This document shows, one piece after another, positions 19,701 through 64,000 of a stretch of DNA of 64,000 nucleotides; within the stretch, counting starts at the first letter, position 1, and the number at the start of each line of letters is the position of its first letter. The DNA comes from Panopea generosa (Eukaryota; Mollusca; Bivalvia; Adapedonta; Hiatellidae). Made by a program: the position numbers and the translations under genes. Under the pieces are notes generated by a model that did not search any database, was not told where the DNA came from, and saw only the letters and a list, made by a program, of their open reading frames with translations. The stretch is taken from assembly GCA_029582155.1 (NCBI GenBank), contig CM055908.1:18763406-18827405 (forward strand), in the 5' to 3' direction.

Positions 19701-22700
19701 CAGGTGTAAGTCTAGACAATCATACAACAGGTAAGTCTAGACAATCATATAGCAGGTGTAAGTCTAGACAATCATATAACAAGTATATGTATAGATAATC
19801 ATATAACAGGTGTAAGTCTAGACAATCATACAACAGGTAAGTCTAGACAATCATATAGCAGGTCTAAGTCTAGACAATCATATAACAGGTAAGTATAGAC
19901 AATCATATCACAGGTATAATAATGTACCATGTATAACAATAAAAGATTCACAAACACACTTATTAACAAGAAAAATATCGGTGGAACAGATGAATGCTCC
20001 CCAAAGTGAGTGTTTGACTCTGTACCATACGGTAATGATATTGAACGGGAAACAGTAACTGTGAGAGTTCTAAAAAGTCAATACATTATTTTTTTATTCT
20101 GTGATATAATACATTGTACAACATACCTTGAATAGGTCATTATGATGCATCCTAGTAAGATTCATAAAATTCCAACCTGAGGTTGTAGAGAAATAGCACG
20201 GACAAGAATTTGGTCACAGACTCAATGAAAGGGCCATAACTCCATGAAAAACCATCGAACCTGAACACAAAGACAATATGCGCATCTTCACTTGGTAATG
20301 ATGCATTCAAGCAAGTTCGTTAAAATTCCAACCTGAGGTTATAAAGAAATAGCCCGGACAAGAACTTGGGGACTGACGGACGGATGAAGCGGCGACTATA
20401 TGCTTCCCCCCTTTGGGAGAGCATAAAAGCCATTTGATATTGTTTGAAGTGCAAGAAATGTACATGGGAAACACACCACAGTATGAAATAAGAAATTAAA
20501 CTTGAAGGCATACAGAAACTGTACTAACCAGAACATTAAAACAGTGACAATTACAGTAGCTTAAAACAGTGGATATTAAATCAAGTTCAAAAGAATATAC
20601 ATGTTTTGTAGTTGACAACATCAGATAAGGTAAAAATTGTGAAATTAGTTTACAGTTCACCTATTCCTTGGTTTGTGTAATGAAGATACATGTAAAACAA
20701 TATTTCAGTGTAAAGAAGTGAATTGAATAAGCACCACAAGTGGGCGCAGACCCTCATCTTTAAGTTCATTATGTAAGTCAAGGCCAGTTTTTTTTTAACA
20801 AGATAACAATTAGTTTACAGAATCGATACTATTGCTGAAAATCAAAACAGATAAAAAGCAAAAGTCATTCAAACCAAAGCTGAACAAACCTACGTTTTTA
20901 GACCAAACTATGGAAACTTTGGTAATTTAGGTGTATACATCGTTCAGACTACTGTATAAAGTTTAATCATCCCTTTAACATATTAAGTGTATTGTTGAGA
21001 GATAGACCGACTGATTGATTGAATATTTAGCATCATTTTTATGCCATCCAGGGCTAACAGACGATCATTTAACCTAACCACTTTTTCCTGGGATCCTGAA
21101 AGGTTAACCAGTACTCGATCACACCCCATCTCCACAAGTAACTGATAACTTTTATACTTGAATCAGCGGTGCGAGACAAATGATAATGAGACACAATGTC
21201 AAATATCAATCATCATGGAGACTGCTGCCAGGCAGGGATTCGAACTCTCGACTCCTGGATTGATAGTAAGACAACAACAATGATACCAGGGTCAAGTTTT
21301 TTGTAAGGCGAGCTAAATATTCTATAATATGCATGGTAAAGTAGTGAAATAAGTAAATATATAACATCACAAAAAGATGTAACAGTGAGTTACAATGTAA
21401 ATAGAACATTTATCTAATACCAGAAGAGAAAGTTCATACAAAATGCACAAAATGTTACACGATGTAGATCATTTTATTCCATTGAGAGCATCATAAACTT
21501 TTCATATACCATATCCCCCAAAATAAACACCCCTGGCAGCAATGCATTTTTCAAAAGGGGGGCATTTATTTGAATTTAAGATTTTTTTATATTTTTATGT
21601 GTGTAACAAACAATTTTGTTTTATAATTGTTTCTCAAACATATACATGACAGTTTCTATTTTTTTATTATTTCTCATATCCAAATTTGTAGAAGCATTTA
21701 TTAGGGCAGGGGGGGGGGGGGGGGCTGGGGGGGGGGGGACATTTATTCAGAGGGATACGGTATATATGTATATACATCTTTGAGATCATTAAACTATTTC
21801 AAGTATTTACTAATATTCTAGGTTAAGAAAGTTTGAGGTAGAATCACTGACCGTGTCATTTTGTGCTGTTCCCAATTGCACATTGGCCAGAATCAACAAC
21901 TGTTTTGTCACCAAGGGAACCTGATTGCAGTAGGAACGCAAATCTGCACAGAAACTGAAATACATTTTTATACATAAGATACATAATATGACTGTCTGAG
22001 AGTTGTACACAAGACTCTTTATGTAACTGACTCTTAGTAATTGCCTGATCATCTGTACACAGCAACTAAAATAAGTCAACAATTACTGTGAGTCTTCAGC
22101 ACAGGTTGGCTAAATGCTGGATTTTTATGTAATTAATTCCAGTTTTGACAGAACAGGGCATTTGCCAATCTCTGTAGAGTGGTAGTAATCCAAAAAATAA
22201 GTATCATGTTCACTGAAGTTCATTTTTATGGTTTAATTATAAGTACAGAGTCAGTACCTTCCAGAAAGTGTGACCACATGCTGGTAAACAACTTTCGGAA
22301 AATGTGACCACATGCTGGAACACAATTTCTGGAAGGTGTGACCACATACTGATACATAATTTCCAGAATGTCTGACCACACACTGGTACACAACTTCCAG
22401 AAGGTGTGATGACTTCCTGGTACACAACTTCCAGAAAGAATGACCACATGCTGGTACAAAACTACCAGAAAGGGTGACCAAACACTTGTTCACTACTACC
22501 GGAAAGTATGACCATACACTGGTACACAACTTTGGGAAAGTGTGACCACACACAGGTACACAACTTCCAGAAAGTGTGACCATACGCTGATACACAACTT
22601 GCAGAAAGTGCAACCACACACTGGTACACAACTTCCATAAAATTGTGACCACAAGCTGGTACACAACTTCCAGAAAGTGTGACCATATATTGGTACACAA

Positions 22701-25700: not shown

Positions 25701-28700
25701 GTTTTCTAATAACAGGACCAGGAGTGCCTACTCAAGTTGAGATGTTTTCTGATTACAGGACCAGGAGTGCATACTCAAGATGAGATTTTTCTGATTACAT
25801 TTCCAGGAGTGCATACTCAAGTTGAGATGTTTTCCGATTACTGGGCCAGGAGCCCATACTCAAGTTAAGATGTTTTCTGATTACATGGCCAGGAGCGCAT
25901 ACTCAATTTGAGGTGTTTTCTGATTACATTTCCAGGAGTGCGTACTCAAGTTGAGATGTTTTCTGATTACAGGGCCAGGAGTGCATTCTCAAGTTGAGAT
26001 GTTTTCTGATAACAGGACCAGGAGTGCCTACTCAAGTTGAGATGTTTTCTGATTACAGGACCAGGAGTGCATACTCAAGATGAGATGTTTTCTGATTACA
26101 TTTCCAGGAGTGCCTACTCAAGTTGAGATGTTTTCTGATTACAGGACCAGGAGTGCATACTCAAGATGAGATATTTTCTGATTACATTTCCAGGAGTGCA
26201 TACTCAAGTTGAGATGTTTTATGATTACAGGGCCAGGAGCCCATACTCAAGTTAAGATGTTTTCTGATTACAGGGCCAGGAGTGCATACTCAAGTTGATA
26301 TGTTTTCTGATTACAGGACCAGGAGGGCATACTCAAGATGAGATGTTTTCTAATTACAGGACCTGAGACTGGTTTCATTTAACTTCTCAAGCTGATATTT
26401 TCTTCAACTCCAAAATCTTAATCTCTCTTAATGATTACTTGAACTCATTATACATTAAAATGACCACACATAGTTAAAGTCATAACACATCTGTATTTAT
26501 TGGTATATGATAGAAACATGCAACATAATCAGCATGGATGAGGTTACAGCATTTCAAAAATTTGAGTTGAGAAAAATCTCAAGCTGAGATGTGTAGTGAG
26601 ACTAGGTGCAGGACTATTACCGTGATGGGAGGTTTCTGCCTGATGTATTGAGTCATATGTTGTATATGGGTAGACATAGTCTGGGCCACCTTCACTATAG
26701 GGTTATTGTCATCTTCCCACTTGTCCGTCTGTCTCTGGATGTACTCAGCCTCTTTCTGCAAGAGAACAATAACACCTGTATTATAGGTAACCTCCATTAC
26801 ACAGATACCTGACTTAAACATGACATGTTGCTCTATACATTATTTGACTGTTTAAGTATTTAAGTACAACGTAAAATGCAGTTGTTGTAGTTTAGGTTCT
26901 TTAGTAGATCTGTGGTATATGGTACCAACTTGTCTCCAACACGAACCTGGCAGACTGGAAGATTGCGGTTCTAGTTGTATTTCTGAGAGTTAAATTTTCA
27001 TCCATAATGTTTAAAGTAGACCTTTTGGCATGTATACAATCAAATTGGTGAATTTCAATTTATATTAATTTATTTGAGCTCAATTGCAAAGAAAGCTTAA
27101 AGCTTATTTATACCGCTCGAGTCTGCTTCCTGGGTAAAAGCAGAGGGAGTGTTGATTTTTAAGAGGCAACGGGTTGAGCTGGTGTGAGCAGCCAACATTC
27201 TATCCACTACACTACCACTCCGCTTTGGTGAATTTTCCCACAACTTCATCAATATGACTCTTTATAATACTGAAAGTTTTTCATCTATTCAGCTAGGTTC
27301 ATTTATTTGCAACTGTACAATAATTTTAAAGGGACACAGTACAATGTTGAAATCACTTTTTACTCCTGTCCATGCATCAAATCAATCAATTTATACCTAG
27401 GGCATACAACCATATGAAAACATTTATCTCCACCTTTTTTATTCTTTTTTTTATTTTGAATGGGGTTTAACACCATTTTCAACACATTTCAGGTTATATA
27501 TGGCATATCCAGTTTTTACTGGTGGGGGAAGACCTCAGACTGAGTCAGACTGAGTCAGACTGAGTAGAACCACCGTCCTTCTCAAGTAACTGGCAAACTT
27601 TCTTACATAAAGTTTTTGGAGTGAGTGGGACTCGAACCTATGACCTTAGTGGTGAGAGGTACCGATAAGTGATCTTGAGACGGCATATTAGACATCTTCA
27701 TTTTTTGCTTTCTGACTATTCATACTTAAAAAATTACTTACCTTTTTTATTTAAGAAACTAGTTTTGAAAATTATAAGAAAAAATCCTCTAAACATTTTG
27801 TTATACTGCTTGTTATATATGACCATGAATATGTGAAATATGATGCATTTAAACCATTTACAAGAGTTATACCCCTTTGTGAACAGAATGATATCTCCAC
27901 ACAACTTGGTTATTCTAATTCCATATTTGCATCATATGGATCTATAATATTCAGAAATAGGTGCAAATTTATCAAAATTTCCCTTTAAAATGTTTGATAA
28001 AACAATATATCTATTTTATTCTAATAAAAACATGCAAACCTTACCACAATCCAACAGCTGGTCGACACCATTTTCACCATAATGACAAGTTATATACCAG
28101 ACATATCCAATTCAATAGGTGGAGGAACACTCAAGAATGAATCTGAGTAGAACCACTGTTCTTCCACAAGTACAGTCAAACATGTGAAAGTGGCCACCTC
28201 TATTAAGCAGCCACTTGTCTTAAGCAGCCACATTTTCTATTTCCCATTTTTATGTTTTCAGAGCAAATTAACCTGTATTAAGCAACCACCTGTCTTAAAA
28301 GGTCACTTTTGCTCCTTCTCTTAACTGGCTGTTTAAGACAGGTTTGACTGTAACTGGCAAAACAAGCTAAGATAAATGAGATTACTCAAGCTCAAACTCA
28401 GAAGACCGACAGCGTCCATCACGTGGAAAAACGAAATACAAGTAATCCTGTATGTCAATCACATCAACTATTCTGTCATGCAATTATAACAGTAGAAACA
28501 TCTTACACAAAGTGCCAAGAATGACTTTGCAGAATTCTTTGATGGAGATTCTGTTGGAGGGCTTGCTGAAAGGCTTGCTGGAGATTTAGCTGGAGATATG
28601 TTGCTGTTGTTGTAGTTGATTGTCGATTGATCAGCCATTGTCAACTCTGCTACTTTACTGAAAAAAAATATAATGTTAAATAATGTTGTAATCCAGTTCT

Positions 28701-40700: not shown

Positions 40701-43700
40701 ACACACCTGACACTTCTTCTTTAAAATTACATGCATAAGTATGATACCAACACAGTTAAACTGAAGTAAATATTTAGTACACACCTGGCATTCTTGTAAA
40801 TCTGCTCTTCTATTGCTTCAAGATCAACCACCACTGGTTCAAAGTTGGCCCATTTTGGATTTCCATCTGTGTTTGTATTTCTTACTGAGGTAATGCCTTG
40901 TGATCCAGGATGAGACAGAGACACATTTTTCTCTAAATGTCTAGAATCATTGTTATTAATTGATTCAACAGTGTTATGTGACTTGTTACGTCCGGAAACA
41001 TTCGCAGTATCATGTGACTTGGAATGGACATGTGATCCGGAATAATTGGCCTTTGGTTGCGATGCTGTGGAAGTTAAAGTGTGAAGTTTCGATGACTGCC
41101 AAGGCATGTCTTCTGATGTTTGTACTGTTCCTGAGAATAAACAATCTCCCTCCAGTTTCTCCGAGATAGAATCATAACTTGGACCAGGCTCAGATGGTTC
41201 CAGAAGTTTTAGTATATCTGCAAAAATTGAAACAACAGCTGTCAGAGTACATTGTATGATTATTATAGTTTAGGCCATAATAAATTCATTGCTAGATTAT
41301 CATCCTCCTTATTTCCATGCCGCCCCTGACCCGTTTTATTTTTATAAAAAAAATTAAAAAAAATAAAAAAATTTAGAAATAAAAATAAAAAATAGAATCC
41401 TCCCACCCTCCCGGTTTTTAAGAAAAAAAATTTGGATGATAATCTAGCAATTAATTTATAATGGTCTTATACTAATAAAGTAAGATCAGAGCATATTGTT
41501 TGGCATATCATTTGTCATTGTGGTCTTTACATATTTTGAATCAAGGGCTAACAGAATTGGTGATAACTTAACCCAGCCACTCTTTACTGGGATCCTGGAA
41601 GGTTAAACAGAACTCAAGCACATCCATCTCAGCAAAACTGATAACCCACTTGAATCAGCAGTGAGAGAAAAATGACAATGAGAAGCAACGCTTGTATCAA
41701 TCATCACGGAGACTGTGGCCAGACAGGGATTCGAACTCACCACCCCTGGATTGATAGCAGACATGCTACCAACTGAGCTAACCAGGCCCGGCTACCTGGA
41801 GCTTTAAAGGTAGGGATTGGATTGGGGAGATGTCACTAAAACAGAGTTTATGAAATGAAAAATTTTGTTTCTCCTTTTTACAAAAGGGTTACATGGTCCT
41901 TCCCGGTCAAGTGGTCTAAGATGCTATCTCAAGACCACTTATCTCTCATCCAGGTTCGAGTCTGGCTTGGTCCAAAAACTCTATATGAGAAGTTTGCCTC
42001 AGTTACTTGGAGGATGGTGGTTCTACTGTGATGATTCTGTCTGAGGTTTTCTTCCACCAATGAAACTTGATTCGCCACATGTATGTATGGTATGTAACAT
42101 GAAATGTGTTGAAAATGGCATATAAAACCTCTTCAAAAAAGGGAATTTACAACAGGTCTTGGGTTAAATGTGACTAAAATGTGTTCCAATTAAATTAGCA
42201 ATTTGCTTAAAAAAAATTAAACACAATTTAGTCAGAATCAATTTAATTTTTTCAAATCATGTGCCTGAAAGTGAAAGTAAAAAGTCATGAAGATATCAAT
42301 TTATATTTTCTGACAATTTCCACTTTTTTTTCATAACTAGCACTACACAAGATGATTTCTAAAATATTAAGGTTCAGGAAAAAGAAATAGGGTTTTGCAT
42401 CATCTAATTATTATATTTTCATACAGTCAAAAGATGTGAATTCATGCATGCACATTTTTAAACAGCAAACTGAAATTCAGTTAAATTAGATAACAACATT
42501 CTATTATTTTCTAAATCAAATATTTGGTGACATATCCATCACAAGAAGATGTAAATATTCAAGATGGGGTTACTGATTAAATTCATTCAATCCTTTGTTG
42601 AACTTAAATTTGTTTCACCAATAATTAAACTGTCACAGAAGGATTTGGAATGTCTTATCATATCCATCTAAAGGTTCTGCACACACTGTCACATATTCAT
42701 CAAAGCAATGGTAAACATTGTCATAATTGTCACAGTTGATCTGCCAGGTCAGAATGAGCGGAACTGTTAATCCAGTCAGAATTGTTCTCAATCTGGGCAG
42801 AATTGGTGTTGAACTGGGCAGAACTGGTGTTAAACTTAACAGAATTGGCATTAAACCAGGCAGAATAGGTGTTAAAACAGGCAGAATTGGTGTTAAACTG
42901 GGCAGATAGGCAGAATTGGTGTTAAACCAGGCAGAATTGGTGTTTAGCCAGGCAGAATTGGTGTTTAACTAGGCAGAATTGGCATTATACCAGACAGAAT
43001 TAGTCTTAAACCAGGCAGATTTGATGTTAAACTAGGCAGAATTGATGTTTAACTAGACAATAGTAAAAAAATATGATGTTAAAACTGGGTCATGTAGTGC
43101 TTAACTGGACAGTATGTTGTTTAATCGAACATATGGGTATTTAATGGGCTGGTGTAATGTTAAACTGGGCAGTGAAGTGTTAAACTGGGCCATATGTTGT
43201 TAAAATGGGCAGTGTAATGGTCAACAGGACATAGACAATAAAATATAAGTAGATATGGTTTCAACTTTTATGGTGTTCACATGAACAATCTTTCAAACAT
43301 ATTTTTTTAAAGACATTTCACACAAAGTTTATCACATTAAAAATCGATATATCTCATAATACGATGGCTAATTTTATTGCGGGAAGAAAACAAATGATGC
43401 AAATCATTCAATTTCAATGTACATGATTTAGGGTACAGACAGATAAAAAGCACAAAATGTTTCAATGTTCATGATTTTGGTACAGACAGATAAAAAACAC
43501 AAAATATTTCAATGTTCATGATTTTGGGTACAGAGAGATAAAAAACACAAAATGTTTCAATGTTCATGATTTCGGGTACAGAGAGATTAAAAACACAAAA
43601 TGTTTTACAATAGTACCAAACCTAATTCCTCACTATAACCATAATATTAAGACAACATTAGAGAGGCTGGTTGACCTTAGTTTATACTAATTTCTTTCAG

Positions 43701-55700: not shown

Positions 55701-57674
55701 TTTACTACTTAACCAAGTTTGTATGTTTTAAATTTACTACTTAACCAAATTTGTATGTTTTAAATTTTCTACTTATTTGTCAGAAACATAAAGGTGTATT
55801 AAGTACTTTGAGCAGTTTTACAATTTAGTTTGATTTTTACCAGAACTACTTTTATAGCACATCGATCTCTGATATGCGTCATTCGGCCAAACTGTATGTT
55901 CAGTTTGAACACAAGTTGCTCAAATAACTTGGTTCAGTTAGTGAATTTTAAGGATAAAATGTATAAGTGTATTTGAATAGGGTAAAGTATACTGTAATTT
56001 GACATTTGTGACCATAAATGAAGTTTTTAATGGTCACAAATTTGTTTTATTGGGGACACTGAAGTAGGAAACCACCTAGTCAATAATGGAAACAAGGCAA
56101 GTAACTGTGTGGTAGATAAATACCACAGATATGACCTTTATCTAGGCCAGTTTATATATTCATCACTAGAAATAATTCCTATCTGTCACTTTTATCTGTG
56201 AACACCATTCTGAGAACATAGATATTGCCTGAAGCCATCTCGTTATACACAAAAGCTGCAGTTCTGTAGCCAGGTTCACTAAACATTACAAGTTGAGATT
56301 TTCCTCAACTGAAAAATATCATTTTGCCTTAAATTCAAACATAAACTTATGACACATAAAGTGGTCACACGGGACTGATGCCGGAACAAATCTTTACTCA
56401 TTAGTGTAGGATTACATGCAAAAAAATGGTTAATGTAAATAAAGTTATGACATTATGAAAAATTAAGTTAAGTACAATCTCAAGTTGAAACATTTGTGGA
56501 GCGCGTGGTCCAGTGGTAGCGCACCAAACCCATGATCGGAGGGTCGTGGGTTCAATCTTCCGCCACGGTTATGTGTGGTGTCTTTGAGCAAGACACTTTT
56601 CCACATATGCTTAGTACTGATTCTTACCTGGAAGACTTCAAGCGTGATTTGCCTAAGTCGTAAGAACTTGTTTCGAAAACGAAGTAAAATAAATAAGTTT
56701 AAACAAAGTTGAAACTGGGGGCTGAACTTATAACTCCCTCCATCATCAGGAAAATAAGCTTTTTAATGTTGATAATCAATACAGGCCATTTCTTAATGTT
56801 GATACACTAAATGAATGTTTACACTTCTGAACATATATCCTATGTAGTCTTTATCATCTGTTTGATCGTCTGTTAGCCCTCAATTGCATAAAAAAATACA
56901 CTATTCATATTCATCTGTTTGCTTTATTAAAAGACAAATGTCTTGACAAGTTGCGCAGAACAAACATTTGAATCGGAAGTAAGATTTGATTGGCTGAAAC
57001 AAACACCTCTGCAATGGTTATGCTATAATAAAATTTAAAAATATTTATTACACAAGATCTTTGTCATTGAACATATCTAATAATATAATAATAATGAATA
57101 TAGAAATAAACATCCAAACCAATCTTCTTCACAGAGTTATCATTCGTTACACTCATTTCAGTGAAGGTAATGAGTCTAAAGTGTTAGAGAGTGCATCAAA
57201 ATGACACTCTTTTGAAAAACTATGAAATGAAAATCTTTGAGGTAGACCAATTGTTTAAATCAACAAATCAAAAATTTTATCAGTTTACCGTTACAATTTT
57301 ATTTTCAGTTGAACTTGTCAAGATATTTGTCTTTTAGAAAAGCAAGCTTCGCAGGTGATCAAGAACAATATTATAATATAACAATACCGTCTGGAACCTC
57401 ATTCAAAATGATTAACAGTTTTCATAGTTCAGTCGTGTCAGGTTATATACCTACCCATAACAGGCACTCTTCAGTAGATCTTTCAGTCGTGAATTTTCTT
57501 CTTTTAGATATTCAGCAAGATTCTCTTGTACATCTATACGTGGCCATATTTTCCGCTCCACACCAAGATTAAGAAGTTCATCGGTCAAGATCTCCAGACT
57601 GATCATCATGCTATTGACCTTTACTGACCACTCCCGGCCAAGTTGCTCCAACTGCACCAACTCTTCTTTCACAC
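5700..57674 (-). CDS. Vinculin/alpha-catenin superfamily-like gene (spliced, 5' end outside window)
   Basis: Eleven single-copy exons plus one exon from the upstream repeat array join without any phase conflict and end at TGA (5702-5700), giving about 649 residues in this window. The C-terminal part resembles the vinculin/alpha-catenin tail in order and spacing: [17 protein letters not shown], then [20 protein letters not shown], then [20 protein letters not shown], then LVQNAQNLM and a basic QWRKK segment. Vinculin, as I remember it, has matching KW..GNDII, NAQNLM and RWVRK motifs. The middle holds a Ser/Asn-rich linker of over 100 residues and a Ser/Pro-rich linker like vinculin's neck. The family links cadherin or integrin adhesions to actin in the cytoplasm; that role is inferred from family only. 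The protein also extends roughly 45 residues past the vinculin end point. It could be a divergent vinculin, an alpha-catulin relative or a lineage-specific paralogue. The N-terminal exons lie beyond 64000. Confidence 0.72.
5895..6560. repeat. 45-bp tandem array abutting the terminal exon acceptor
   Basis: About 15 units of AAATAAACCAGACATAACTT plus AACATGCTTCAGTTGAAATG-type sequence. Two variants (GACATAAC and GATAATAC) alternate in the distal half. The unit is a multiple of three, so it leaves a long spurious open frame on the minus strand. Confidence 0.9.
6561..8812. other. Intron sequence without recognised genes
   Basis: AT-rich. Holds the inverted copy of the dispersed element (7840-8090) and a fragment at 7610-7750 that resembles 50540-50705. 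Confidence 0.5.
7840..8090 (-). mobile_element. Dispersed repeat, copy 2 (inverted)
   Basis: The reverse complement shares AGGCAACTGATTGATATTTTGTG-type sequence and the AAACGAGATATTGCGATATT block with 640-880. Confidence 0.55.
8813..9540 (+). mobile_element. Dispersed mollusc-type repeat with internal triplication
   Basis: Starts CAGCTGTTGATTAGACAGTG then CACTCGACTATTCAAATATT, as at 24368-24740. Between 9010 and 9480 a block of about 160 bp (TTTCAATCAAATACATTGAG, TGATATGGACTTGA, CTTTAACCA) is repeated three times. Confidence 0.65.
10058..10300. mobile_element. TTAA-type MITE, degenerate copy
   Basis: Has the CTTTACTTCATATAGAC start, three 25-bp units (GACGCCTTTGGACACCTC type), a large palindrome around GAGCAATCTGAAC, and an end GGAGTAAAGGGC. 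The flanking TTAA is mutated. Confidence 0.75.
10924..11400. repeat. 24-bp minisatellite
   Basis: About 20 units of ATGTATTCATATTGTGATAT plus AACA/AATAA variants. Confidence 0.9.
11640..12055 (+). mobile_element. Dispersed repeat with internal tandem duplication
   Basis: Two successive blocks share ATGCAAAGRGCMRTAACWCAG, AAAATTATTGAACAG and CCTCACACTGATCCTTC. It ends with CAGACAGACAGC and GGAGACATAATTA. I do not recognise its class. Confidence 0.5.
12562..12648 (-). CDS. Tail exon 4 of vinculin-like gene
   Basis: The acceptor is CTCCATCTAG and the donor is ATA AAA before GTGTGT. The 29 codons are phase 0 at both ends and read [20 protein letters not shown] then [18 protein letters not shown] is nearly identical to the last tail helix of vinculin as I know it. 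The acceptor and the first six exon bases are the first unit of the 32-bp tandem array at 12643-13450. Confidence 0.82.
12643..13500. repeat. 32-bp tandem array built from a 3' splice site
   Basis: More than 20 units contain GTCAGCCTAGATGGAGATAA. On the minus strand each unit reads CTCCATCTAG/GCTGAC, exactly the acceptor and first six bases of the exon at 12648. The first unit is the real splice site. Later units vary mainly in the AAATAGTAAAT part, and the copies past 13400 are decayed. Confidence 0.85.
13695..13753. repeat. (TA)n microsatellite
   Basis: Uninterrupted TA dinucleotides of nearly 60 bases. Confidence 0.98.
14117..14263. mobile_element. Foldback MITE
   Basis: Arms of about 60 bases: left starts TTGTTTGTTTTGGTGAAAGA and the right end is its inverted copy, with TGATCACCAAAA near the loop. 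Only a short spacer separates the arms. Confidence 0.75.
14415..14610. mobile_element. Second foldback MITE, different family
   Basis: Left ATAAACCCAATACGCTATTT and right AATAGCGTATTCGGTTTAT are inverted copies over about 45 bases. CTACGT and TTCTATTT are also mirrored. Confidence 0.75.
14841..15075. mobile_element. TTAA-flanked MITE copy
   Basis: Terminal CCCTTTACTTCATATAGAC and GGAGTAAAGGG, TTAA on both sides (14837-14840 and 15076-15079), and the internal palindrome centred near 14990. It carries two or three 25-bp units. Termini and TTAA recall piggyBac-type ends. Confidence 0.8.
15451..15577. mobile_element. Short foldback element
   Basis: AAGTATCTTTCATGGGGTTT followed by CAGGTGCGGG is inverted at the right end (CCGCACCTTAAACCCATGAA). 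It forms an overlapping spurious open frame. Confidence 0.65.
15985..16310. repeat. 31-bp minisatellite
   Basis: About 10 units of CAAAGTCCCTAATATTCAAA plus TGTGATTTAAT. It decays toward 16700 into scattered TCACAGTCCCTGATATTTAT fragments, with another at 17190. Confidence 0.85.
16311..17864. other. Intron sequence without recognised genes
   Basis: Decayed minisatellite fragments up to about 16700, then AT-rich unique-looking sequence. No exon was supportable. Confidence 0.5.
17865..18960. repeat. 53-bp minisatellite with shortened variants
   Basis: About 20 units of GTAAGACTAGCTTATCATAT, AACAGGTGGGTTTAGACAGT and GATCATATTACAG. Some units lack the TTATCATATAACA part (AGACTAGCAAGTGGG), giving a mixed array. 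Confidence 0.9.
19080..19925. repeat. 27-bp minisatellite related to the preceding array
   Basis: About 28 units of GTCTAGACAATCATATAACA plus GGTATAA. It shares ATCATATAACAGGT and TAGACA with the 53-bp array just before it. Confidence 0.9.
21000..21290 (-). mobile_element. SINE-B copy
   Basis: Contains CTGGGATCCTGAAAGGTTAA, ACTTGAATCAGC and a minus-strand B box (GAGTTCGAATCCCTG type; here GGATTCGAACTC on plus). It matches copies at 30545, 41535 and 57712. Confidence 0.75.
21506..21768. mobile_element. Foldback element with poly(G) tract
   Basis: Left ACCATATCCCCCAAAATAAA and right ATTTATTCAGAGGGATACGG are inverted. Two G runs sit at about 21709-21740. Confidence 0.55.
21852..21954 (-). CDS. 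Tail exon 3 of vinculin-like gene
   Basis: The acceptor is ATTTCAG and the donor is GAC ACG before GTCAGT (phase 0). A second acceptor 10 nt downstream (CTGTGCAG) would break the frame. After the Ser codon made across the junction it reads [20 protein letters not shown] then [14 protein letters not shown]. This matches the helix of the vinculin tail with the pattern L..C..IP..T.QL.IL. Confidence 0.82.
22240..22975. repeat. 34-bp minisatellite
   Basis: About 21 units of GACCACACACTGGTACACAA plus CTTCCAGAAAGTGT. All minus-strand frames stay open (up to 235 codons), which is a repeat artefact. Confidence 0.92.
23257..23357 (-). CDS. Tail exon 2 of vinculin-like gene
   Basis: The acceptor is TTTTACTACATTAG and the donor is GAA AG before GTATAT (phase 2). 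It reads [20 protein letters not shown] then [13 protein letters not shown]. The spacing to the previous and next exons equals that of the vinculin tail helices. Confidence 0.8.
23425..24335. repeat. 48-bp minisatellite
   Basis: About 19 units of TGGATGCTCCCCAAACAAGT, ACTTGATTGGGTAATTAACC and TTCCTTTC, starting roughly 70 bases upstream of the exon at 23357. The unit is a multiple of three, so it yields long false open frames. Confidence 0.92.
24368..24740 (+). mobile_element. Dispersed mollusc-type repeat, shorter copy
   Basis: Starts AAGAGCTGTCAGAGGGACAG then CGCGCTCGACTATTCAAATA; matches 8813-9540 and ends near TTTGGTGAGCATAAAA. Confidence 0.65.
25143..25375 (-). mobile_element. SINE-C copy
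   Basis: Shares AGGTTATATATGGCATATCC, GAATCTGAGAAGAACCACGG and a tRNA-like end (B box on minus within AGTGGGACTTGAACAATTGA) with 27440, 41885 and 45553. Confidence 0.7.
25410..26360. repeat. 43-bp minisatellite
   Basis: About 22 units of CAGGAGTGCATACTCAAGTT plus GAGATGTTTTCTGATTACAG with GGACC or TTTCC variants. A five- or six-unit block appears to be duplicated within the array. Confidence 0.92.
26621..26755 (-). CDS. Tail exon 1 of vinculin-like gene
   Basis: The acceptor is TTCTCTTGCAG and the donor is ATC ACG before GTAATA. The 45 codons are phase 0 at both ends and read [20 protein letters not shown], then [25 protein letters not shown]. The KW-acidic-N-P-I pattern followed by a Met-rich helix corresponds to the start of the vinculin/alpha-catenin tail bundle. 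This exon is one of the strongest family signals in the gene. Confidence 0.82.
27070..27228 (-). mobile_element. SINE-D copy
   Basis: Shares CTCGAGTCTGCTTCCTGGGT and the TGAGCAGCCAACATTCTATC block with 43690 and 44720. The tRNA-like head is at the right end on the minus strand. Confidence 0.7.
27440..27690 (-). mobile_element. SINE-C copy
   Basis: Contains AGGTTATATATGGCATATCC, a local duplication of GACTGAGTCA, and GGGACTCGAACCTATGACCT (minus-strand B box). Confidence 0.72.
28075..28380 (-). mobile_element. SINE-C fragment interrupted by a MITE
   Basis: The left part ends AACCACTGTTCTTCCACAAG and the right part resumes ACTGGCAAAACAAGC. Other SINE-C copies run CAAGTAACTGGCAAAC without a break, so the two halves were once contiguous. 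Confidence 0.75.
28173..28350. mobile_element. MITE with CAGTCAAAC ends and TA duplication
   Basis: Starts CAGTCAAACATGTG and ends CAGGTTTGACTG, flanked by TA (28171-28172 and 28351-28352). AAGCAGCCAC and AAGCAACCAC motifs repeat inside. Tc1/mariner-like by its TA site. Confidence 0.8.
28507..28657 (-). CDS. Ser/Pro-rich neck exon of vinculin-like gene
   Basis: The acceptor is a run of T then CAG. The donor is CTT TGT before GTAAGA; an overlapping GTGTAAG would break the frame into the next exon. After the Ser codon formed across the junction it reads [20 protein letters not shown] then [14 protein letters not shown] and [14 protein letters not shown]. The position, between the bundle region and the tail, matches the proline-rich neck of vinculin (family knowledge). 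The preceding intron is about 12 kb and contains the TFAP2 gene. Confidence 0.75.
29484..29571. mobile_element. Short foldback MITE (AATTGCTAGATTA family)
   Basis: AGGCCATTATAAATTAATTG and AGATTACCATCC are inverted at the right end. The larger relative is at 41270-41467. Confidence 0.75.
30545..30845 (-). mobile_element. SINE-B copy
   Basis: Runs from TTGAATATTTGGCATCATTT through GGGATCCTGAAAGGTTAAAC to CCCCTGGATTGATAGTC and GAGCAAATCAGGCC. The B box is mutated (AATTCAAACTCAC on plus). Confidence 0.75.
31030..31105 (-). mobile_element. SINE-D head fragment
   Basis: Only the tRNA-like end is present: CAACCTCTGGTGTGAGCGGT and TATCCACTACCCTACTGCTC. Confidence 0.55.
31683..31893 (+). mobile_element. 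SINE-A copy with target-site duplication
   Basis: The head GGAGTGCGTGGTCCAGTGGT then AGAGCACC supplies an A box, and GTGGGTTCGATTCTCC a B box. The tRNA-like part is followed by CCTTGAGCAAGACACTTTTC and an AAATAAATAA tail. AAGTTCTA flanks both sides (31670-31677 and 31907-31914). A GTCGTGGG duplication has enlarged the variable region. Confidence 0.85.
33545..33645 (-). mobile_element. tRNA-like SINE fragment
   Basis: The minus strand has GTGGTTAAGGGGTAGAGTAT (A-box-like) and CATGGGTTCAATCACTGGCC (B-box-like). Only the head is recognisable. Confidence 0.55.
33838..33960. repeat. Short tandem repeat, about 27 bp, four to five copies
   Basis: Units of ATAATATATAATGTGCTTAT with CATGAT/CTTGAA variants. 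Confidence 0.75.
34945..34950 (-). terminator. Candidate poly(A) signal of TFAP2
   Basis: AATAAA on the minus strand, about 90 nt after the TFAP2 stop. It is a single hexamer in AT-rich DNA, so the support is limited. Confidence 0.4.
35038..36951 (-). CDS. TFAP2: TFAP2 (AP-2) transcription factor, two exons, nested in an intron
   Basis: Exon 1 is 36951-35792 and exon 2 is 35278-35038, with donor ACAAA/GTAAGT and acceptor CAATTGCAG. The split Lys codon rejoins as AAA and the product is about 466 residues. The N-terminal part has a proline/aromatic activation region ([17 protein letters not shown]). From about residue 260 comes the AP-2 DNA-binding and helix-span-helix dimerisation domain: [70 protein letters not shown], then across the junction [25 protein letters not shown] and [19 protein letters not shown]. 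The family binds GC-rich palindromes as dimers in the nucleus and directs ectoderm and neural-type development. The ATG at 36951 has AAAC before it and G after, and an in-frame TGA lies about 36 nt upstream. A 5' acceptor (TTGTGCTTGTAG near 36970) may allow an upstream exon. All but the last intron known from vertebrate genes is absent. Confidence 0.93.
35395..35582 (-). mobile_element. SINE-D copy in the TFAP2 intron
   Basis: The copy shares GCTCAGAG, GCTTCCTGAGGTTGAACCAG and the GAGCGGC block with the copies at 43690 and 44720. On the minus strand a tRNA-like head starts GTGGGGCAGTTGTGCAATGG, with GGTTTGACCCC as B box. It fills much of the 513-bp intron. Confidence 0.7.
36952..39057. other. 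Upstream flank of TFAP2, no gene seen
   Basis: AT-rich. No promoter element could be identified with confidence. A shortened copy of the dispersed element lies at 38165-38290 and a mutated repeat with CAGACAGATGGACATACATC at 38880-38990. Confidence 0.5.
39060..39664. mobile_element. MITE with expanded internal 25-bp satellite
   Basis: Termini CCCTTTACTTCATATAGACG and GAGTAAAGGG. Between 39075 and 39510 there are about 17 units of GACGCCTTTGGACACCTCTA plus ATATA, where sister copies carry two to nine. The palindrome GTGCAGGAAGTGTTCAGATT / inverted lies at 39555-39610. Confidence 0.85.
39965..39996. repeat. (TGAA)n microsatellite
   Basis: Seven to eight uninterrupted GAAT/TGAA units; a shorter one is at 29770. 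Confidence 0.9.
40413..40490 (+). mobile_element. SINE-A head fragment
   Basis: GGAGTGCGTGGTCAAGTAGT and CATGGGTTCAATCCCTAACT keep the A and B boxes. The body is missing. Confidence 0.65.
40495..40785. repeat. 80- to 97-bp tandem array duplicating a 5' splice site
   Basis: Four donor-like sites CAG/GTGTGTACTA lie on the minus strand near 40514, 40611, 40705 and the true exon end at 40784. Three are preceded by GAATGC and the 40705 unit by AAGTGT. Each unit also holds ATTTAYTWCAG, an acceptor-like string, after the donor, so each contains a mini-exon-like interval. Confidence 0.75.
40785..41217 (-). CDS. Large linker exon of vinculin-like gene
   Basis: The acceptor is AATTTTTGCAG and the donor is GCC AG before GTGTGT (phase 2). 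The 143 codons start [20 protein letters not shown], continue through a low-complexity Ser/Asn/His-rich stretch and finish with [22 protein letters not shown]. The last part returns to a structured, acidic helix. Most of the exon therefore looks like a disordered linker. The donor lies at the edge of a tandem array in which the donor itself is repeated (40495-40785). Confidence 0.75.
41270..41467. mobile_element. Foldback MITE (AATTGCTAGATTA family), longer copy
   Basis: GGCCATAATAAATTCATTGC and AGATTATCATCC are inverted at GGATGATAATCTAGCAATTA. The loop is A-rich with CCCTCCC. It lies 50 bases upstream of the exon at 41217. Confidence 0.8.
41535..41798 (-). mobile_element. SINE-B copy, best preserved
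   Basis: The minus strand starts near GCCGGGCCTGGTTAGCTCAG then TTGGTAGCATG (A box), followed by GTGAGTTCGAATCCCTGTC (B box), and continues with the shared body to CCCTTGATTCAA. Confidence 0.8.
41885..42135 (+). mobile_element. SINE-C copy
   Basis: The head CCCGGTCAAGTGGTCTAAGA and CAGGTTCGAGTCTGGC resembles a Ser/Leu-type tRNA. The body has GGATGGTGGTTCTACTGTGA and ends in AAATGGCATATAAAACC. Confidence 0.8.
42770..43215. repeat. About 22-bp minisatellite
   Basis: Roughly 20 units of GGCAGAATTGGTGTTAAACC with progressive decay to the right (GGGCAGTGTAATG). Confidence 0.88.
43415..43610. repeat. 48-bp tandem repeat, four copies
   Basis: Units contain TTTCAATGTTCATGATTTTG and GGTACAGACAGATAAAAAAC. 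Confidence 0.88.
43683..43978. repeat. Direct duplication of about 0.3 kb, copy 1 (includes SINE-D)
   Basis: Runs from TTATACTAATTTCTTTCAGC through the SINE-D copy (about 43690-43865) to AAATAACATACAGGCATA. The same stretch recurs at 44715-45020 with few changes. Confidence 0.85.
44715..45020. repeat. Direct duplication of about 0.3 kb, copy 2
   Basis: Near-identical to 43683-43978 but keeps an additional TCTGCCCAACTTTTAG after the SINE head. It leads straight into the 58-bp array at 45000. Confidence 0.85.
45000..45270. repeat. 58-bp tandem repeat, about four copies
   Basis: Units with GAAATAACATACAGGCATAT, CAAACCTGAAGAGTCGGAAT and TCTTCTATGTCATATA. Confidence 0.9.
45553..45775 (-). mobile_element. 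SINE-C copy
   Basis: GTTATATATGGCATATTCAG, AATAAATCTGAGTAGAACCA and the minus-strand head at AGGACTCGAACCTATGACCT and GTGATCTTGAGACAGCGCCT. Confidence 0.75.
45776..46396. other. Intron sequence without recognised features
   Basis: AT-rich. No exon, RNA gene or repeat was recognised. Confidence 0.5.
46401..46608. mobile_element. TTAA-type MITE copy, inverted orientation
   Basis: Starts CCCTTTACTCCATAGATACG after TTAA (46397-46400) and ends GAAGTAAAGGG; the right TTAA is mutated. The internal palindrome is centred near 46482. Confidence 0.8.
46609..47465. other. Intron sequence without recognised features
   Basis: AT-rich unique-looking DNA; no coding support. Confidence 0.5.
47466..47632 (+). 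mobile_element. SINE-A copy, 5' truncated or diverged
   Basis: From ATCAGAGAGTTGTGGGTTCA through TGTGTGGTGTCC to ATCGAGGTAAAATAAATAAG. The A box is lost. Confidence 0.65.
47634..47955. mobile_element. TTAA-flanked MITE inserted in a SINE tail
   Basis: CCCTTTACTTCAT...GGAGTAAAGGG with TTAA on both sides (47630-47633 and 47956-47959). It has about nine 25-bp units but only half of the palindrome (TACGAGCAATCTGAACTCTT). It sits exactly in the 3' tail of SINE-A. Confidence 0.8.
48066..48247. mobile_element. Foldback MITE copy (CCTGTTTCACCAACAT family)
   Basis: GGCTTCCGTTTCACCAACAT, AAGTTTTGACTGGTTATTTA and an inverted ACATAAGTTTTTATGTATTT at the right. Confidence 0.6.
48706..49932 (-). pseudogene. 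Decayed LINE reverse-transcriptase C-terminus
   Basis: Three frames broken by shifts read, in minus-strand order, [20 protein letters not shown] (49720 region), a short middle piece at 49141-49329, and [16 protein letters not shown] with [17 protein letters not shown] (48900 region). GGLKMI...LK..W..R and W.YR.LH.ILPTN...C.FC...ET..HLFW are typical of the region after the RT domain in animal non-LTR elements, including the zf-RVT cysteine motif. There is no intact RT or endonuclease, so the copy is dead. Confidence 0.82.
50164..50302. mobile_element. Short TIR element with TA duplication
   Basis: CAGTAGAGAGAATTACCATT and the following TTACAGTGCTA are inverted at the right end with about three mismatches over 38 bases. 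TA flanks both ends (50162-50163 and 50303-50304). Tc1/mariner-like MITE. Confidence 0.85.
50540..50705. repeat. Dispersed fragment shared with 7610-7750
   Basis: Both have GACTAAATGTTGATAAARTA and CTTGTACATAAAATGT. Class unknown. Confidence 0.45.
51566..51760 (-). CDS. Exon of vinculin-like gene
   Basis: The acceptor is TTTATATTCAG and the donor is GCT G before GTAGGT (phase 1; a second GT four bases later would break the frame). It encodes [20 protein letters not shown] through [13 protein letters not shown], a long amphipathic helical stretch typical of vinculin/alpha-catenin bundles. Confidence 0.77.
51761..53342. other. Intron sequence without recognised genes
   Basis: AT-rich. I found no exon or clear element. 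Confidence 0.5.
53343..53442 (-). CDS. Exon of vinculin-like gene
   Basis: The acceptor is TTTTTGTATAG and the donor is ACT G before GTAAAT (phase 1). It encodes 33 residues beginning [20 protein letters not shown] and ending FCVKYTT. Start phase 0 matches the preceding exon and end phase 1 matches the next exon (AT...). Confidence 0.72.
53653..53884. mobile_element. TTAA-flanked MITE copy, inverted orientation
   Basis: Starts CCCTTTACTCCATAGATACG and ends TGAAGTAAAGGG, with perfect TTAA at 53649-53652 and 53885-53888. The palindrome around CTCGTAACGAG is intact (about 25-base arms). It carries two short 25-bp-type units and lies 0.2 kb upstream of the exon at 53442. Confidence 0.88.
54788..54962 (-). 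CDS. Exon of vinculin-like gene
   Basis: The acceptor is TTTTTACCATTCAG and the donor is AAG followed by GTATAC. The exon starts with the T that completes a Gly codon and reads [20 protein letters not shown] and on to LHRGMWILK, ending in phase 0. The sequence is helical and charged. About 0.4 kb upstream (higher coordinates) lies a 32-bp AT-rich tandem array at 55320-55775. Confidence 0.75.
55320..55775. repeat. 32-bp minisatellite
   Basis: About 14 units of AACCAAGTTTGTATGTTTTA plus AATTTACTACTT. Confidence 0.92.
55776..56480. other. Intron sequence without recognised features
   Basis: AT-rich; no coding or repeat signal recognised. Confidence 0.5.
56492..56705 (+). mobile_element. SINE-A copy with perfect 10-bp target duplication
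   Basis: GGAGCGCGTGGTCCAGTGGT and GGTCGTGGGTTCAATCTTCC carry the A and B boxes. The body is as at 31683 and the tail is AAATAAGTTTAAACA. AAGTTGAAAC flanks both sides (56482-56491 and 56706-56715). Confidence 0.88.
57455..57674 (-). CDS. Exon (first single-copy exon in window) of vinculin-like gene
   Basis: The acceptor is TTTATTTAAG before GTGTGAAAG. The exon completes a Gly codon from the upstream array exon (CAA G / GT) and reads [19 protein letters not shown] onward to LLKSACY. It ends GG before GTAGGT (phase 2). The 72 full codons are amphipathic and charged, as expected for a helical-bundle segment. The upstream neighbour is the 56-nt exon array that begins about 0.6 kb away. Confidence 0.75.
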
Positions 57675-57990: not shown

Positions 57991-58229
57991 AAGGATAAGA
58001 CGCAGTTAAGAGTGAAAATTGGTTAGTGGCCAAAAATTAAACGATTGAAATTTCTTAACAATCAGTAGAATTACCTAATAAAAGTACAGTTTATAGCAAT
58101 TCCTTTGTAAATTTGTTTATTAAGTTTGAAAACTGGATGTGAAAGTCCACATTTCCTTGAATAATCTTTTTAATGGAATATTTTACACCATAAAAAGTGA
58201 TTTGATGAGCCTAAGCAATGCATAATATT

Positions 58230-59097
58230 GTCCTAAATACTACCCAGCTATATTTCTGTCACCTGAGATTAACATTAATTATGTACCTTGATCAGTTATC
58301 ATCTCAGCTGTCCTATTTACTGCCCAGCTGTATTTCTGATACCTGAGATTAACATTAATTCTTTATATACCTTGATCAGTTATCATCTCAGCTGTCCTAT
58401 ATACTGCCAAACTATATTTCTGATACCTGAGATTAACATTAACTCTTTATGTACCTTGATCAGTTATCATCTCAGCTGTCCTATATACTGCCCAGATATA
58501 TTTCTGATACCTGAGATTAACATTAATTATGTACCTTGATCAGTTATCATCTCAGCTGTCCTATATACTGCCCAGCTATATTTCTGATACCTGAGATTAA
58601 CATTAATTATGTACCTTGATCAGTTATCATCTCAGCTGTCCTATATACTGCCCAGCTATATTTCTGATACCTGAGATTAACATTAATTATGAACCTTGAT
58701 CAGTTATCATCTCAGCTGTCCTATAGACTGCCAAACTATATTTCTGATACCTGAGATTAACATTAACTATGTACATGTACCTTGATCAGTTATCATCTCA
58801 GCTGTCCTATATACTGCCCAGCTATATTTCTGATACCTGAGATTAACATTAATTATGTACCTTGATCAGTTATCATCTCAGCTGTCCTATAGACTGCCAA
58901 ACTATATTTCTGATACCTGAGATTAACATTAATTATGTACCTTGATCAGTTATCATCTAAGCTGTCCTATATACTGCCCAGCTATATTTCTGATACCTAA
59001 GATTAACATTTATTCTTTATGTACCTTGATCAGTTATCATCTCAGCTGTCCTATATACTGCCCAGATATATTTCTGATACCTGAGATTAACATTAAT
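58230..59097 (-). repeat. 80-bp tandem array carrying a 56-nt exon, array part 1
   Basis: Ten full copies of a 56-nt candidate exon start at 58287, 58371, 58455, 58535, 58615, 58695, 58781, 58861, 58941 and 59025, with a decayed partial copy at about 58232. Each is flanked on the minus strand by CTCAG (one CTTAG) and a GT donor (GTACAT in most). Each copy reads YQKYSWAVYRTAEMITDQ with one base left over on each side. The last base plus GT of the exon at 57674 makes Gly, so any one copy splices in frame. Variants include Trp to Leu (58371, 58695, 58861) and Ser to Ile (58455, 59025). The copy at 58941 has an in-frame TAG. Length changes between copies fall only in the intron-like part. Confidence 0.75.
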
Positions 59098-61225
59098 TAC
59101 AGACCCTAAACTGCTCAAGTACCCCATAATTGCACACCATTTGTGCTCAGTTAGCACTCCGTTCGCGCTTAGTTCGCGCTCCATTTGCGTGCACTCGATT
59201 AAACGCGGTTAATTTAATGCGCTCACAAACCCAAGTATTCGCTCACGAGAGCTGTATATCTGAGTGCTCTCTTTAATACTCCTCTTAGCATTTGCTTCGT
59301 TCAGCGTTCACTCAACGTTCAGTTCGCTCAGTTCGGTTTCCGGCCCATAACCAATCGCAACATCTCAACTCTTACAATGATTCTATATATTGCCTTTTTA
59401 ATTCAATCTGTTCCAATGGAGTAATAAAATGTATCCATGGGATTTAGTCAAGGTAAACTAATTCATAATCCGATTGTTTGTCTACATATTATGTCACCCG
59501 CTGGGTGAAAGGTTGTAAATTTCCGATAAACTAGTATCGATAGTAGGCATGTTTAACGGAAGTGTCTATGTTTTGATATGTGATCAGTGGTCTGGGTGAT
59601 CAAAAAATATTGCACGTTATACCAGCTTCTGTTATCCAGACCGACGTGTATTTGCGTCAGTATCTTCTTTGATATACCGTAAGCCGTTTGTTACAGGAAA
59701 GCAATAAAGTTTGTCCACAAAATTTACAGATACATCATCAACATAAACTAAATATATTGTTATCAATAATTAAATTTAATTAATAATTCCATACTGTTGA
59801 TACCTCGTTGACCTTATAGTAATCCATAAATCTGCTCAGTGTAAGCAGTGACTTAACAACATGTGGATATATCACTGGTTTTGTTAATGTTCAAACTAAA
59901 ATAAGCTTTATAATCAATAATATGCACTGCATGGGTGATGAAAAATTTATTATAATCCGTGACATGCAATTCGACATATGATAAAAGATTTTTGAAAAAT
60001 AATAATTTTGTAATGTTTTTCTCGATTTGGGTCCAAATGTGGTTTCACTAAACTTAAAAAAGATATTCTGATATTTTAAGTTTTTATAACTATTTTCGTT
60101 ATCATTATGTATATAAATATACTTGCAATGAACTTTTTTCAGTGGGTTTCTCAAATTATTCTTTTACTGATAGTATGCTTTATGTTAATATATTTTTTGA
60201 AATGACAAACTATATTAAACTTGTTTGAAACTACACCCACTGTGCTATACCACTAATTATGACACGCAGCAACACACCCGTGGTGTTAATTACGTTATGT
60301 CACATGCCAGTGAGAGCCGTGTCAATTAAGTTATACACTAAAGCGGTGACTTATCGGTCTATTGACCACGGAAGATATGTATGATTTCATTTTGATTGAA
60401 ATTAGTGCCAGATGGATGAATCTTCAAGGAGCCGACATTATGTGATTGAAAAGAAAAGATAACAAACTGCCAGCCAATTAACAACAAATAAAAAGATCAT
60501 TTAAGATATTGGTTATTCGAAGTTTCAGAATGCTTTAGTATGTAAATATTATGATGTTAATATCATTAAATTAACGAACCGAAAACCCCACACCAGATCT
60601 GAGTGAATGGTAGAAAGTGTGACATACATGTATTAAGGGATGTGCATTCAGGGCTGTCATTTTGCCACAGCTGCCATAGCAATTTCGTATAAAAAAAAAA
60701 TACAACTAAAAATCAGAATTGTTAATTTACAAAATAAAAAAAATCCTACAATTTTAAAACTAATAAAAATCAAAGACTTGTCTCTAAAAAGCTCCTTGTA
60801 AAAATGTAGTATTTTATTCGTATTATTTTTTTACTTTCATTATTTGTTTTATTTTTTTTTAAATATTATAATCATTGGAGCTATTATTATAATATACATA
60901 TTGACTTATTGATTTGTCACAGCTTTTATATTGGATACGTGCGTACGTGCATCTGGTCAGTCGTTCACAATTAATATTACAATTTAATTACTATTATGAA
61001 GGCAGAGTTGCATGGCAATCATAAAAACAGATATCCATGGTGAGAACCACATGTGTGTCAATAAATAGTTTATTGGTGATTTATCAGTCCATTGATCACG
61101 AAGAACCCTGTCGGTGTGTAATTTTTTCATTTTGATTATAATTTGTGCCAGATGAATGAATCTTAATTTAACCCGCGGCATATGATTGGATAAGAAATAT
61201 ATAGTCAAATCAATACAAAAATATG

Positions 61226-61465
61226 CAGATTTTTTATAATATTATTATTATCATCATTATTATTAATATCAATTATTAATATTATTATCATTATCGTAGC
61301 ATTTTATTTTATTATTAATTATTACTATTATTACTAATATTATTTTCATTAGTATTAATTTTATTGTTATTATTGCAATATTATTGCAATATTATTATAT
61401 TATTATTATATGAGTATTTTTTCTTCTTTATAATTCTTCTTATTATTATTATTATTGTTGTCATT
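61226..61465. repeat. Degenerate ATT/TTA microsatellite inside the transposon
   Basis: Imperfect trinucleotide runs of ATT, interrupted by ATC and GTT triplets, lie near the middle of the 3.86-kb element. Confidence 0.8.
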
Positions 61466-61767
61466 TCTTACTTGTTGCTCCTTTCACAGCTTAATTGTTA
61501 CGTGCATATGTGCACGTGATCATGCGTATCGATTTTGTAGGAAAGCGGGAAAACAATATATTAACTATTTTATAGGCAGTGAATACATGTTCTTTTTTGT
61601 TTATTTAAACCGTCTTCATGATCAAAAGCTGTTCTTTATTCAATATAAAATCTCCACCTAGGTCACCTAGAAATTTACGTTTACTAGTTTTTATTTCCTG
61701 TGTCTAATGTGTTATTTCGGTCTGTCGTGTTAATTTGGCATACATACATTTATTTTACATTAATTTG

Positions 61768-61943
61768 ATTTAGCTTGATTGTGAAGTAAGCTCGGAGCTT
61801 ATGCATATCATTCTCCAGTGCATTCCCTTATTAGATCTGGTACTGAATTGTGTTTCGAAAGGTCGGGTAGAGCCTGTGTCAAACTCGCGACCTCTGCCGT
61901 TTGAAGCCAGCACCCTATCCGCTGTACTACTGACCCACTTTAT
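61768..61943 (-). mobile_element. SINE-D copy inserted in the DNA transposon
   Basis: On the minus strand this begins GGGTCAGTAGTACAGCGGAT (A-box-like) and has GAGTTTGACAC (B-box-like). It ends in the sequence shared with 43690, 44720, 27070 and 35395. It lies within the larger element, so it inserted after, or was carried by, that element. Confidence 0.65.
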
Positions 61944-62957
61944 ATTTTAGAATACAATTAATTTATTACTATTGTTTGCATATTTTAATGAGATGTGCAT
62001 GAGTATAATGTTTCCACTTTAATTGCATCAGTGTAACTATGTTTGGGGAAAATATAAAACTAAAGTTCAAATTAAATTGAAATTGGTAATTTTTATTTTG
62101 CCAAAATACCCAAAACAAATAGAATCATAATCATATAATTTTCCGCATATCTATGTTTTGTTTGATTCACGCATGCTTTGATATTTTTGTATTTGGAGCA
62201 GTATATGCTTAAATCGAAATAAAGTATATGTTTTGTATGTTCTATAACTAATCTATATCGAAATAACACGGCAAATAGTGAATTCATATTACATCTTTTC
62301 GAATTGGTATTTACACAATATATATAATTATTTATAATTTTGTTGCGCAAACCAAACCATATTTAAACATGCAACTATATGAGCCTTGAAACCGTAGATA
62401 ACCATTGATGTGTTGTCTATTGTATAATAGGTATTTTAAACATTATTGTATTGATCAGCTAAATATTGATATTTATGCTATAATTGATAAATTGTTGACC
62501 AAAATAAGTTTTATCATGCCTTTTACAATAAAACATTTATATTAACTACATTTTTTAAATTTATGTGAAAGAACATTTCTTTTTTATCTCAATTTTAAGT
62601 ATCGACTTTACGATCAAATAATGAAAAAAGAGTGTATCCGAATGAACGAGTGCACTCAGTAGCGCACGAATAGTTATGTTATCAGTTATCTTACTGTTTC
62701 TAGCGTATACTGCATATACTGCGCATCTGAGTGTACTCAGCGTATCTGAGTGCATTCAGCATGTCTGAGTGCACTCAATCTATTTCATGCGTTCAGGAGT
62801 GTGTTAATTATTCAAAATCCAGCGTTCGCGAACAGTCCACGTCCGCTCCGTCAGCGCTCAATCTGCGCTCCGTTCGCGCTCCGTCTGCCCTCGGCTTACA
62901 CTCTGAGTGCACTCCGTTTGCGTGCAATTGTGGTACTTGAGCGGTTTAGGGTCTGTA

Positions 62958-64000
62958 TGTACCTTGATCAGTTTGCATCTCTGCTGTCCTATTTACTGCC
63001 CAGCTATATTTCTGATACCTGAGATTAACATTAATTATGTACCTTGATCAGTTATCATCTCAGCTGTCCTATATACTGCCCAGCTATATTTCTGATACCT
63101 GAGATTAACATTAATTATGTACCTTGATCAGTTATCATCTCAGCTGTCCTATATACTGCCCAGCTATATTTCTGATACCTGAGATTAACATTAATTATGT
63201 ACCTTGATCAGTTATCATCTCAGCTGTCCTATATACTACCCAGCTATATTTCTGACACCTGAGATTAACATCAATTATGTACCTTGATCATTTATCATCT
63301 CAGCTGTCCTATATACTGCCCAGCTATATTTCTGATACCTGAGATTAACATTAATTATGTACCTTGATCAGTTATCATCTCAGCTGTCCTATATACTGCC
63401 CAGCTATATTTCTGACACCTGAGATTAACATTAATTATGTACCTTGATCATTTATCATCTCAGCTGTCCTATATACTGCCCAGCTATATTTCTGATACCT
63501 GAGATTAACATTAATTATGTACCTTGATCAGTTATCATCTCAGCTGTCCTATATACTGCCCAGCTATATTTCTGACACCTGAGATTAACATTAATTATGT
63601 ACCTTGATCATTTATCATCTCAGCTGTCCTATATACTGCCCAGCTATATTTCTGATACCTGAGATTAACATTATTTATGTACCTTGATCAGTTATCATCT
63701 TAGCTGTCCTATATACTACCCAGCTATATTTCTGATACTTGAGATTAACATTAATTATGAACCTTAATCAATTATCATCTCAGCTGTCCTATATACTACC
63801 CAGCTATATTTCTGATACCTGAGATTAACATTAATTATGTACCTTGATCAGTTATCATCTCAGCTGTCCTATATACTGCCCAGCTATATTTCTGATACCT
63901 GAGATTAACATTAATTATGTACCTTGATCAGTTATCATCTCAGCTGTCCTATATACTACCCAGCTATATTTCTGACACCTGAGATTAACATCAATTATGT
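62958..64000 (-). repeat. 80-bp tandem array carrying a 56-nt exon, array part 2 (continues past window)
   Basis: Thirteen full copies follow at an exact 80-bp period, from 62963 to 63923, with the same splice borders and peptide as part 1. Variants include Tyr to Cys (63203, 63363, 63523, 63923), Thr to Asn (63283, 63443, 63603), Ala to Val (63203, 63683, 63763, 63923) and Glu to Lys (63683). The copy at 63763 ends in an in-frame TAA. The Tyr/Cys and Thr/Asn variants alternate, giving a 160-bp higher-order repeat between about 63200 and 63660. This and part 1 were one array before the insertion at 59098-62957. Confidence 0.75.

Follow-up and report, generated by a model that had tools for sequence, protein, structure and literature searches.

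Tandem exon duplication with mutually exclusive splicing, as in Dscam (PMC1397879), sets exon-like segments and their splice sites in a row, the duplicates being identified as exons from annotation and expression (PMC9013439; statements on this and the other papers cited by PMC number are limited to excerpts of them). Here we describe a locus of similar appearance, an 80-bp tandem array carrying an exon-like 56-nt segment, in a 64,000-nucleotide stretch of Panopea generosa DNA (contig CM055908.1, positions 18,763,406 to 18,827,405; hereafter the window, with positions counted from its first letter). The array would lie in an intron of an apparent member of the vinculin/alpha-catenin gene superfamily. 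An earlier note on this DNA had proposed either a Dscam-like choice among near-identical exons or a satellite that captured an exon and is mostly silent. We consider it probable that the array is an intronic minisatellite that evolves neutrally and is largely or entirely spliced out, and that its exon-like look is a by-product.

Unlike the tandem exons of PMC9013439, the copies described here are nearly identical, vary neutrally, are separated by spacers of 24-30 nt and are known from sequence alone. Dispersed arrays in oysters are built of 100- to 500-bp units, most of them 140-180 bp long, with the 13 largest groups inside Helentron elements (PMC7492417); the window, from a bivalve-like genome, likewise has numerous short tandem arrays scattered along it, but the present unit is 80 bp and the far end of its array lies outside the window. 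Minisatellite-size tandem units within genes are also found in human segmental duplications, where cryptic splice sites are used; exons are made longer by the repeats, or the repeats are spliced out as newly formed introns of recent human paralogs, and the excerpt describes no whole exon with both splice sites in the repeat unit (PMC2812944). MSY2 at human DDX3Y, an array of ∼100-nt units beside a gene, enters transcripts by supplying a start site and an untranslated exon and has copies conserved among primates, whereas the present array is read from DNA only (PMC3039753). The Caenorhabditis elegans CeRep25B repeats are likewise intronic minisatellites and may influence splicing, but they are 24-base units enriched beside alternative exons, not exon copies (PMC4039745). 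In the titles and abstract openings found for tandem exons, minisatellite exonisation, bivalve repeats and satellite exons, no description of a coding exon amplified as a satellite was met with.

Results

Tandem Repeats Finder reports a period of 80 for two sub-arrays of 10.7 and 13.1 copies, with 91% and 96% matches, respectively (Table 1). On the minus strand, the unit reads ctcag/GTATCAGAAATATAGCTGGGCAGTATATAGGACAGCTGAGATGATAACTGATCAAG/gtacataattaatgttaatctcag, comprising a 56-nt open segment and a 24-nt spacer. A search of the whole window with a 26-base motif, allowing at most three mismatches, recovered 23 full copies (10 + 13), in line with the earlier count of at least 23, and none in 100 shuffles; the tandem array itself is beyond chance. 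Both sub-arrays are parts of a single array parted by an inverted-repeat element, a transposon-like insert whose inverted ends are 93% complementary and whose flanking TA is duplicated. Within this insert, no stop-to-stop open reading frame longer than 90 amino acids was found. The spacer measures 24 nt in 17 of 21 cases, 28 nt in three and 30 nt in one. All length changes thus fall in the spacer, as had been noted before, a weak observation given that the four longer spacers may represent only two events (chance ∼0.09). The array consists of head-to-tail units of tens of bases with high identity and shows turnover in blocks, seen in a 160-bp higher-order repeat and in variants that are for the most part confined to one sub-array. 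It is thus a minisatellite by the tests made.

Distinct variants among the copies number 16, of which 4 are silent, 10 missense and 2 stop; neutral change would give about 3.2, 11.6 and 1.2 (fractions of ∼0.20, 0.73 and 0.07). Neither the silent variants (4/16, p 0.54) nor the stops (2/16, p 0.33) depart from these fractions, and codon positions 1, 2 and 3 hold five, seven and four variants. All the residue differences listed previously (W/L, S/I, Y/C, Y/N, T/N, A/V and E/K) are present, together with a T>I change, in a copy that also carries a stop, and an I>Q change in copy 63018-62963, made by two base changes in one codon that are treated singly in the count. Fourteen of the 56 positions of the exon-like segment are variable, compared with four of 24 in the spacer (Fisher p 0.56; spacer values from the 17 ungapped spacers, the four longer ones, which hold further substitutions, being omitted). 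The mean pairwise difference is 0.0445 in the exon-like part and 0.0239 in the spacer; it is 0.040 and 0.042 within the two sub-arrays and 0.048 between them, a small gap. Apart from a change at position 26 common to both, variants are mostly private to one sub-array; this, together with the 160-bp alternation, shows that each part kept turning over after the split. A protein-level signature of selection, such as would mark a Dscam-like cluster, was not detected among these 16 variants, a small number. The copies show no sign of constraint or diversification, albeit on small counts, and the comparison of synonymous and non-synonymous variation proposed in the earlier note thus gives a Dscam-like choice no support.

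The exon-like features were then set against chance. As claimed before, a consensus copy of the 56-nt segment, which reads YQKYSWAVYRTAEMITDQ, keeps the reading frame when joined to the predicted exon at 57674. When two, three or four copies are joined, the second falls into a different frame and translation stops after 32 residues, which bears out the claim that double inclusion breaks the frame. Every copy was said to have an acceptor, an open segment and a GT donor; the donor is kept in 23/23 copies, but the AG acceptor in 22/23. Stops do occur in two copies, as reported, and with the lost acceptor taken into account the number with intact splice sites and frame is 20, not 21.

With score matrices that are approximations, the unit obtains 5.35 for its acceptor and 5.73 for its donor. 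Between 77 and 83% of dinucleotide shuffles of the unit contain an open AG...GT segment in the required exit phase, and 4.3-5.7% do so with equal or better splice scores. Moreover, consensus units from 18 of the 22 other array intervals, taken on both strands, gave 36 unit-strands for comparison, of which two (30-nt minimum) or three (24-nt minimum) score higher; two of these are antisense to the gene and the third is the 93-bp array 40486-40762. Array intervals number 24 and cover 20% of the window (Tandem Repeats Finder rows merged by hand, short rows omitted), so that one exon-like unit among them is no great surprise. This argument for a chance origin depends on the number of arrays, and the exon-like look of the unit is not clearly beyond chance.

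Nor did the encoded peptide show a family relationship. Its resemblance by eye to the helix near the conserved tryptophan of alpha-catenin and vinculin was not supported by alignments or Pfam. Local alignments to three PDB segments left the peptide unused and were not clearly above shuffled sequence; in an anchored alignment, shuffled peptides scored as well in 1026 of 2000 trials. With the peptide included, the joined exons reach a Pfam Vinculin score of 69.6 bits; leaving it out gives 69.8. No relatives of the peptide were found, in searches that are weak for a gene so diverged. Because the family is so diverged here, we do not read the missing family signal as a negative.

Table 1. Positions of the array, its copies and the predicted exons of the host gene in the window
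Feature	Position	Strand	Remarks
Sub-array 1 of the 80-bp unit	58229..59099	-	10 full copies and a truncated one nearest the next exon
Sub-array 2 of the 80-bp unit	62956..64000	-	13 full copies; truncated where the window ends
Consensus copy of the 56-nt exon-like segment	63843..63898	-	acceptor ctcag before, donor gtacat after
Copy with acceptor AG lost (ctcaa)	63683..63738	-
Copy with stop in last codon	63763..63818	-
Copy with internal stop (E to stop)	58941..58996	-
160-bp higher-order repeat	63203..63658	-	T>N and Y>C copies alternate, three rounds
Insert splitting the array	59100..62955	.	3,856 bp, 29-nt inverted ends, TA at both flanks
Next exon downstream of the array (predicted)	57455..57674	-	acceptor ttatttaag, donor TGG/gtaggt; from frame and splice sites
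Later predicted exon	40785..41217	-	includes a linker; donor CAG/gtgtgtacta, three further copies downstream, in or adjoining 93-bp array 40486-40762
Predicted exons 26755-26621, 23357-23257 and ∼21943-21850	21850..26755	-	joined, match C-terminal vinculin/alpha-catenin domain
Probable last exon	5701..5894	-	45-bp array 5902-6570 stops 8 nt before it

The model of the host gene (minus strand, exons from 57674 down to 5701) was built by eye from frame and splice sites; the predicted donor of the exon ending at 53394 scores poorly (-2.1). Once joined, the downstream exons match Pfam Vinculin (PF01044) at 61.7 bits (cut-off 38.1) as well as catenin alpha and vinculin chains in PDB, and on these matches we tentatively assign the gene to the vinculin/alpha-catenin superfamily. 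Joined exons 57674 to 51566 alone gave no Pfam Vinculin match, and none was obtained with exons 57674 to 40785 for E values up to 1. When the exons are joined, the match to catenin starts nine residues before the end of exon 41217-40785, and including this exon makes the Pfam Vinculin match start nine profile positions earlier. Upstream and downstream exons are thus predicted to form one gene, with exon 41217-40785 as a weak link. Human alpha-catulin was considered as a candidate identity. Its BLASTP match is significant to the C-terminal exons only (30.0 bits, E 3e-4), two further pieces having E values of 1.5 and 3.0, and for this reason the gene is not named alpha-catulin.

Protein searches with the joined exons found no relatives at E 0.01 and 0.001; these searches are weak, candidates being limited by length, shared words and a number of at most ∼8000. 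A TFAP2 exon found 1923 relatives in the same database, so animal proteins are present there; among the 120 matches listed, the best named ones are from the bivalves Ruditapes, Mactra, Potamilus, Solemya and Pecten. The TFAP2 exons lie at 35038-36984 on the same strand, corresponding to PF03299 profile positions 1-133 of 197, with a further exon recognised by eye at 35316-35038. They apparently sit inside an intron of the vinculin-family gene, if both exon sets are one gene. Rfam gave no match in the window at gathering scores.

Several other repeats were observed. At 40486-40803, the donor of a predicted exon, CCAG/gtgtgtacta, is followed by three more copies in or adjoining the 93-bp array, and the 45-bp array near the probable last exon (5894-6570) includes the acceptor tract. 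In the arrays at 17858-19919, the sequence repeated on the plus strand, CAGGTAAG, resembles a donor consensus and runs antisense to the gene. A single listed array (33839-33955) falls in the stretch from 27 to 39 kb. An element containing internal repeats of 25 bp (ATATAGACGCCTTTGGACACCTCTA) is dispersed in the window, at 14840-15101, 39071-39669 and 47646-47960, its flanks having been compared by eye, and copies of a tRNA-like short interspersed nuclear element (GGTTAGCTCAGT...GAGTTCGAAT), also recognised by eye, are found at 57760-58000 and 41640-41800.

Discussion

Under the reading that we favour, the 80-bp unit would have multiplied through ordinary tandem duplication in an intron of the vinculin/alpha-catenin-like gene. 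An inverted-repeat, transposon-like element split the array, duplicating TA, and each part continued its turnover in 80- and 160-bp blocks. The combination of AG, 56 open nucleotides, GT and the right phase would be a by-product of the unit sequence. Splicing would normally remove the copies along with the rest of a single long intron, and cryptic use of a single copy would be rare at most; double inclusion would bring a premature stop. As for the earlier description of a captured exon in a mostly silent satellite, 'satellite' holds, while 'silent' is what neutral variation among the copies suggests. A satellite may have captured an exon: the splice scores fit, but no relative of the peptide was found and such segments readily arise by chance.

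Several observations weigh against this reading. Twenty of the 23 copies are still intact, and among all such dinucleotides on the gene strand the AG of the acceptor stands at the 89th percentile and the GT of the donor at the 95th, inside the range of the other predicted sites of the gene. For a single unit, 4.3-5.7% of shuffles is on the rare side. Exon 57674 needs an upstream partner in matching phase, which may be found in the array or beyond the window. Finally, the neutral test comprises 16 variants only and would miss selection acting on a single functional copy surrounded by unused ones.

That one copy is still used as an exon seems doubtful to us, and the same holds for the more detailed explanation in which a real exon was duplicated many times and a single copy is spliced in, possibly the first one, outside the window, while the rest drift silently. 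This explanation agrees with the open frame, the exit phase and the splice sites, and the threefold recurrence of the exon 41217-40785 donor indicates that an array in this gene can carry an exon edge. It has against it that no relative of the peptide was found, in searches weak for so diverged a gene, and that shuffles yield such segments often enough with 24 array intervals to pick from. For two of 18 predicted junctions, an array edge is no more than 30 nt away (0.26 expected, P 0.023), but the nearness is not significant at 100 nt (P 0.065) or 300 nt (P 0.32); as 30 nt alone passes among three distances, we do not use it as support. A constitutive vinculin-family exon that became a satellite, its splice sites and 56 nt amplified more than 23-fold, in which close spacing of neighbours and decay of double use would keep the gene working and the cell would pick one of the near-identical copies, is a quite unlikely form of such an origin.

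Dscam-like, mutually exclusive choice, with many working copies each giving a slightly different protein, deserves next to no credence. Intact copies with missense differences would suit it, but the variation is neutral, stops and a lost acceptor occur and blocks are homogenised. The spacing is ambiguous: a human beta-globin study gives a hard limit of 44-47 nt from donor to branch point (PMC11291888), and since the 24-nt gap is well under this limit of one human intron, neighbouring copies are unlikely to be joined, gaps of 24-30 nt being likely too short. On the other hand, introns of ∼25 bp occur in some ciliates (PMC5014332), and copies two apart are separated by at least 104 nt and could be joined, so that spacing alone does not enforce single use. 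It is also very improbable that the array acts as a poison-exon switch, tuning the gene level through a stop and decay upon inclusion of at least two copies. The stop after 32 residues in multi-copy joins agrees with such a switch, but many out-of-frame cassettes would act alike and the copies are without sign of constraint.

Our analysis shows that an exon-like reading can be drawn from a satellite in a repeat-rich genome, and it supplies a null test for such claims, made up of shuffled units, antisense arrays and neutral change among copies. If it were true that the RNA uses one copy, the locus would offer a clear example of an exon residing in a satellite, as well as a natural test of splicing choice among nearly identical sites.

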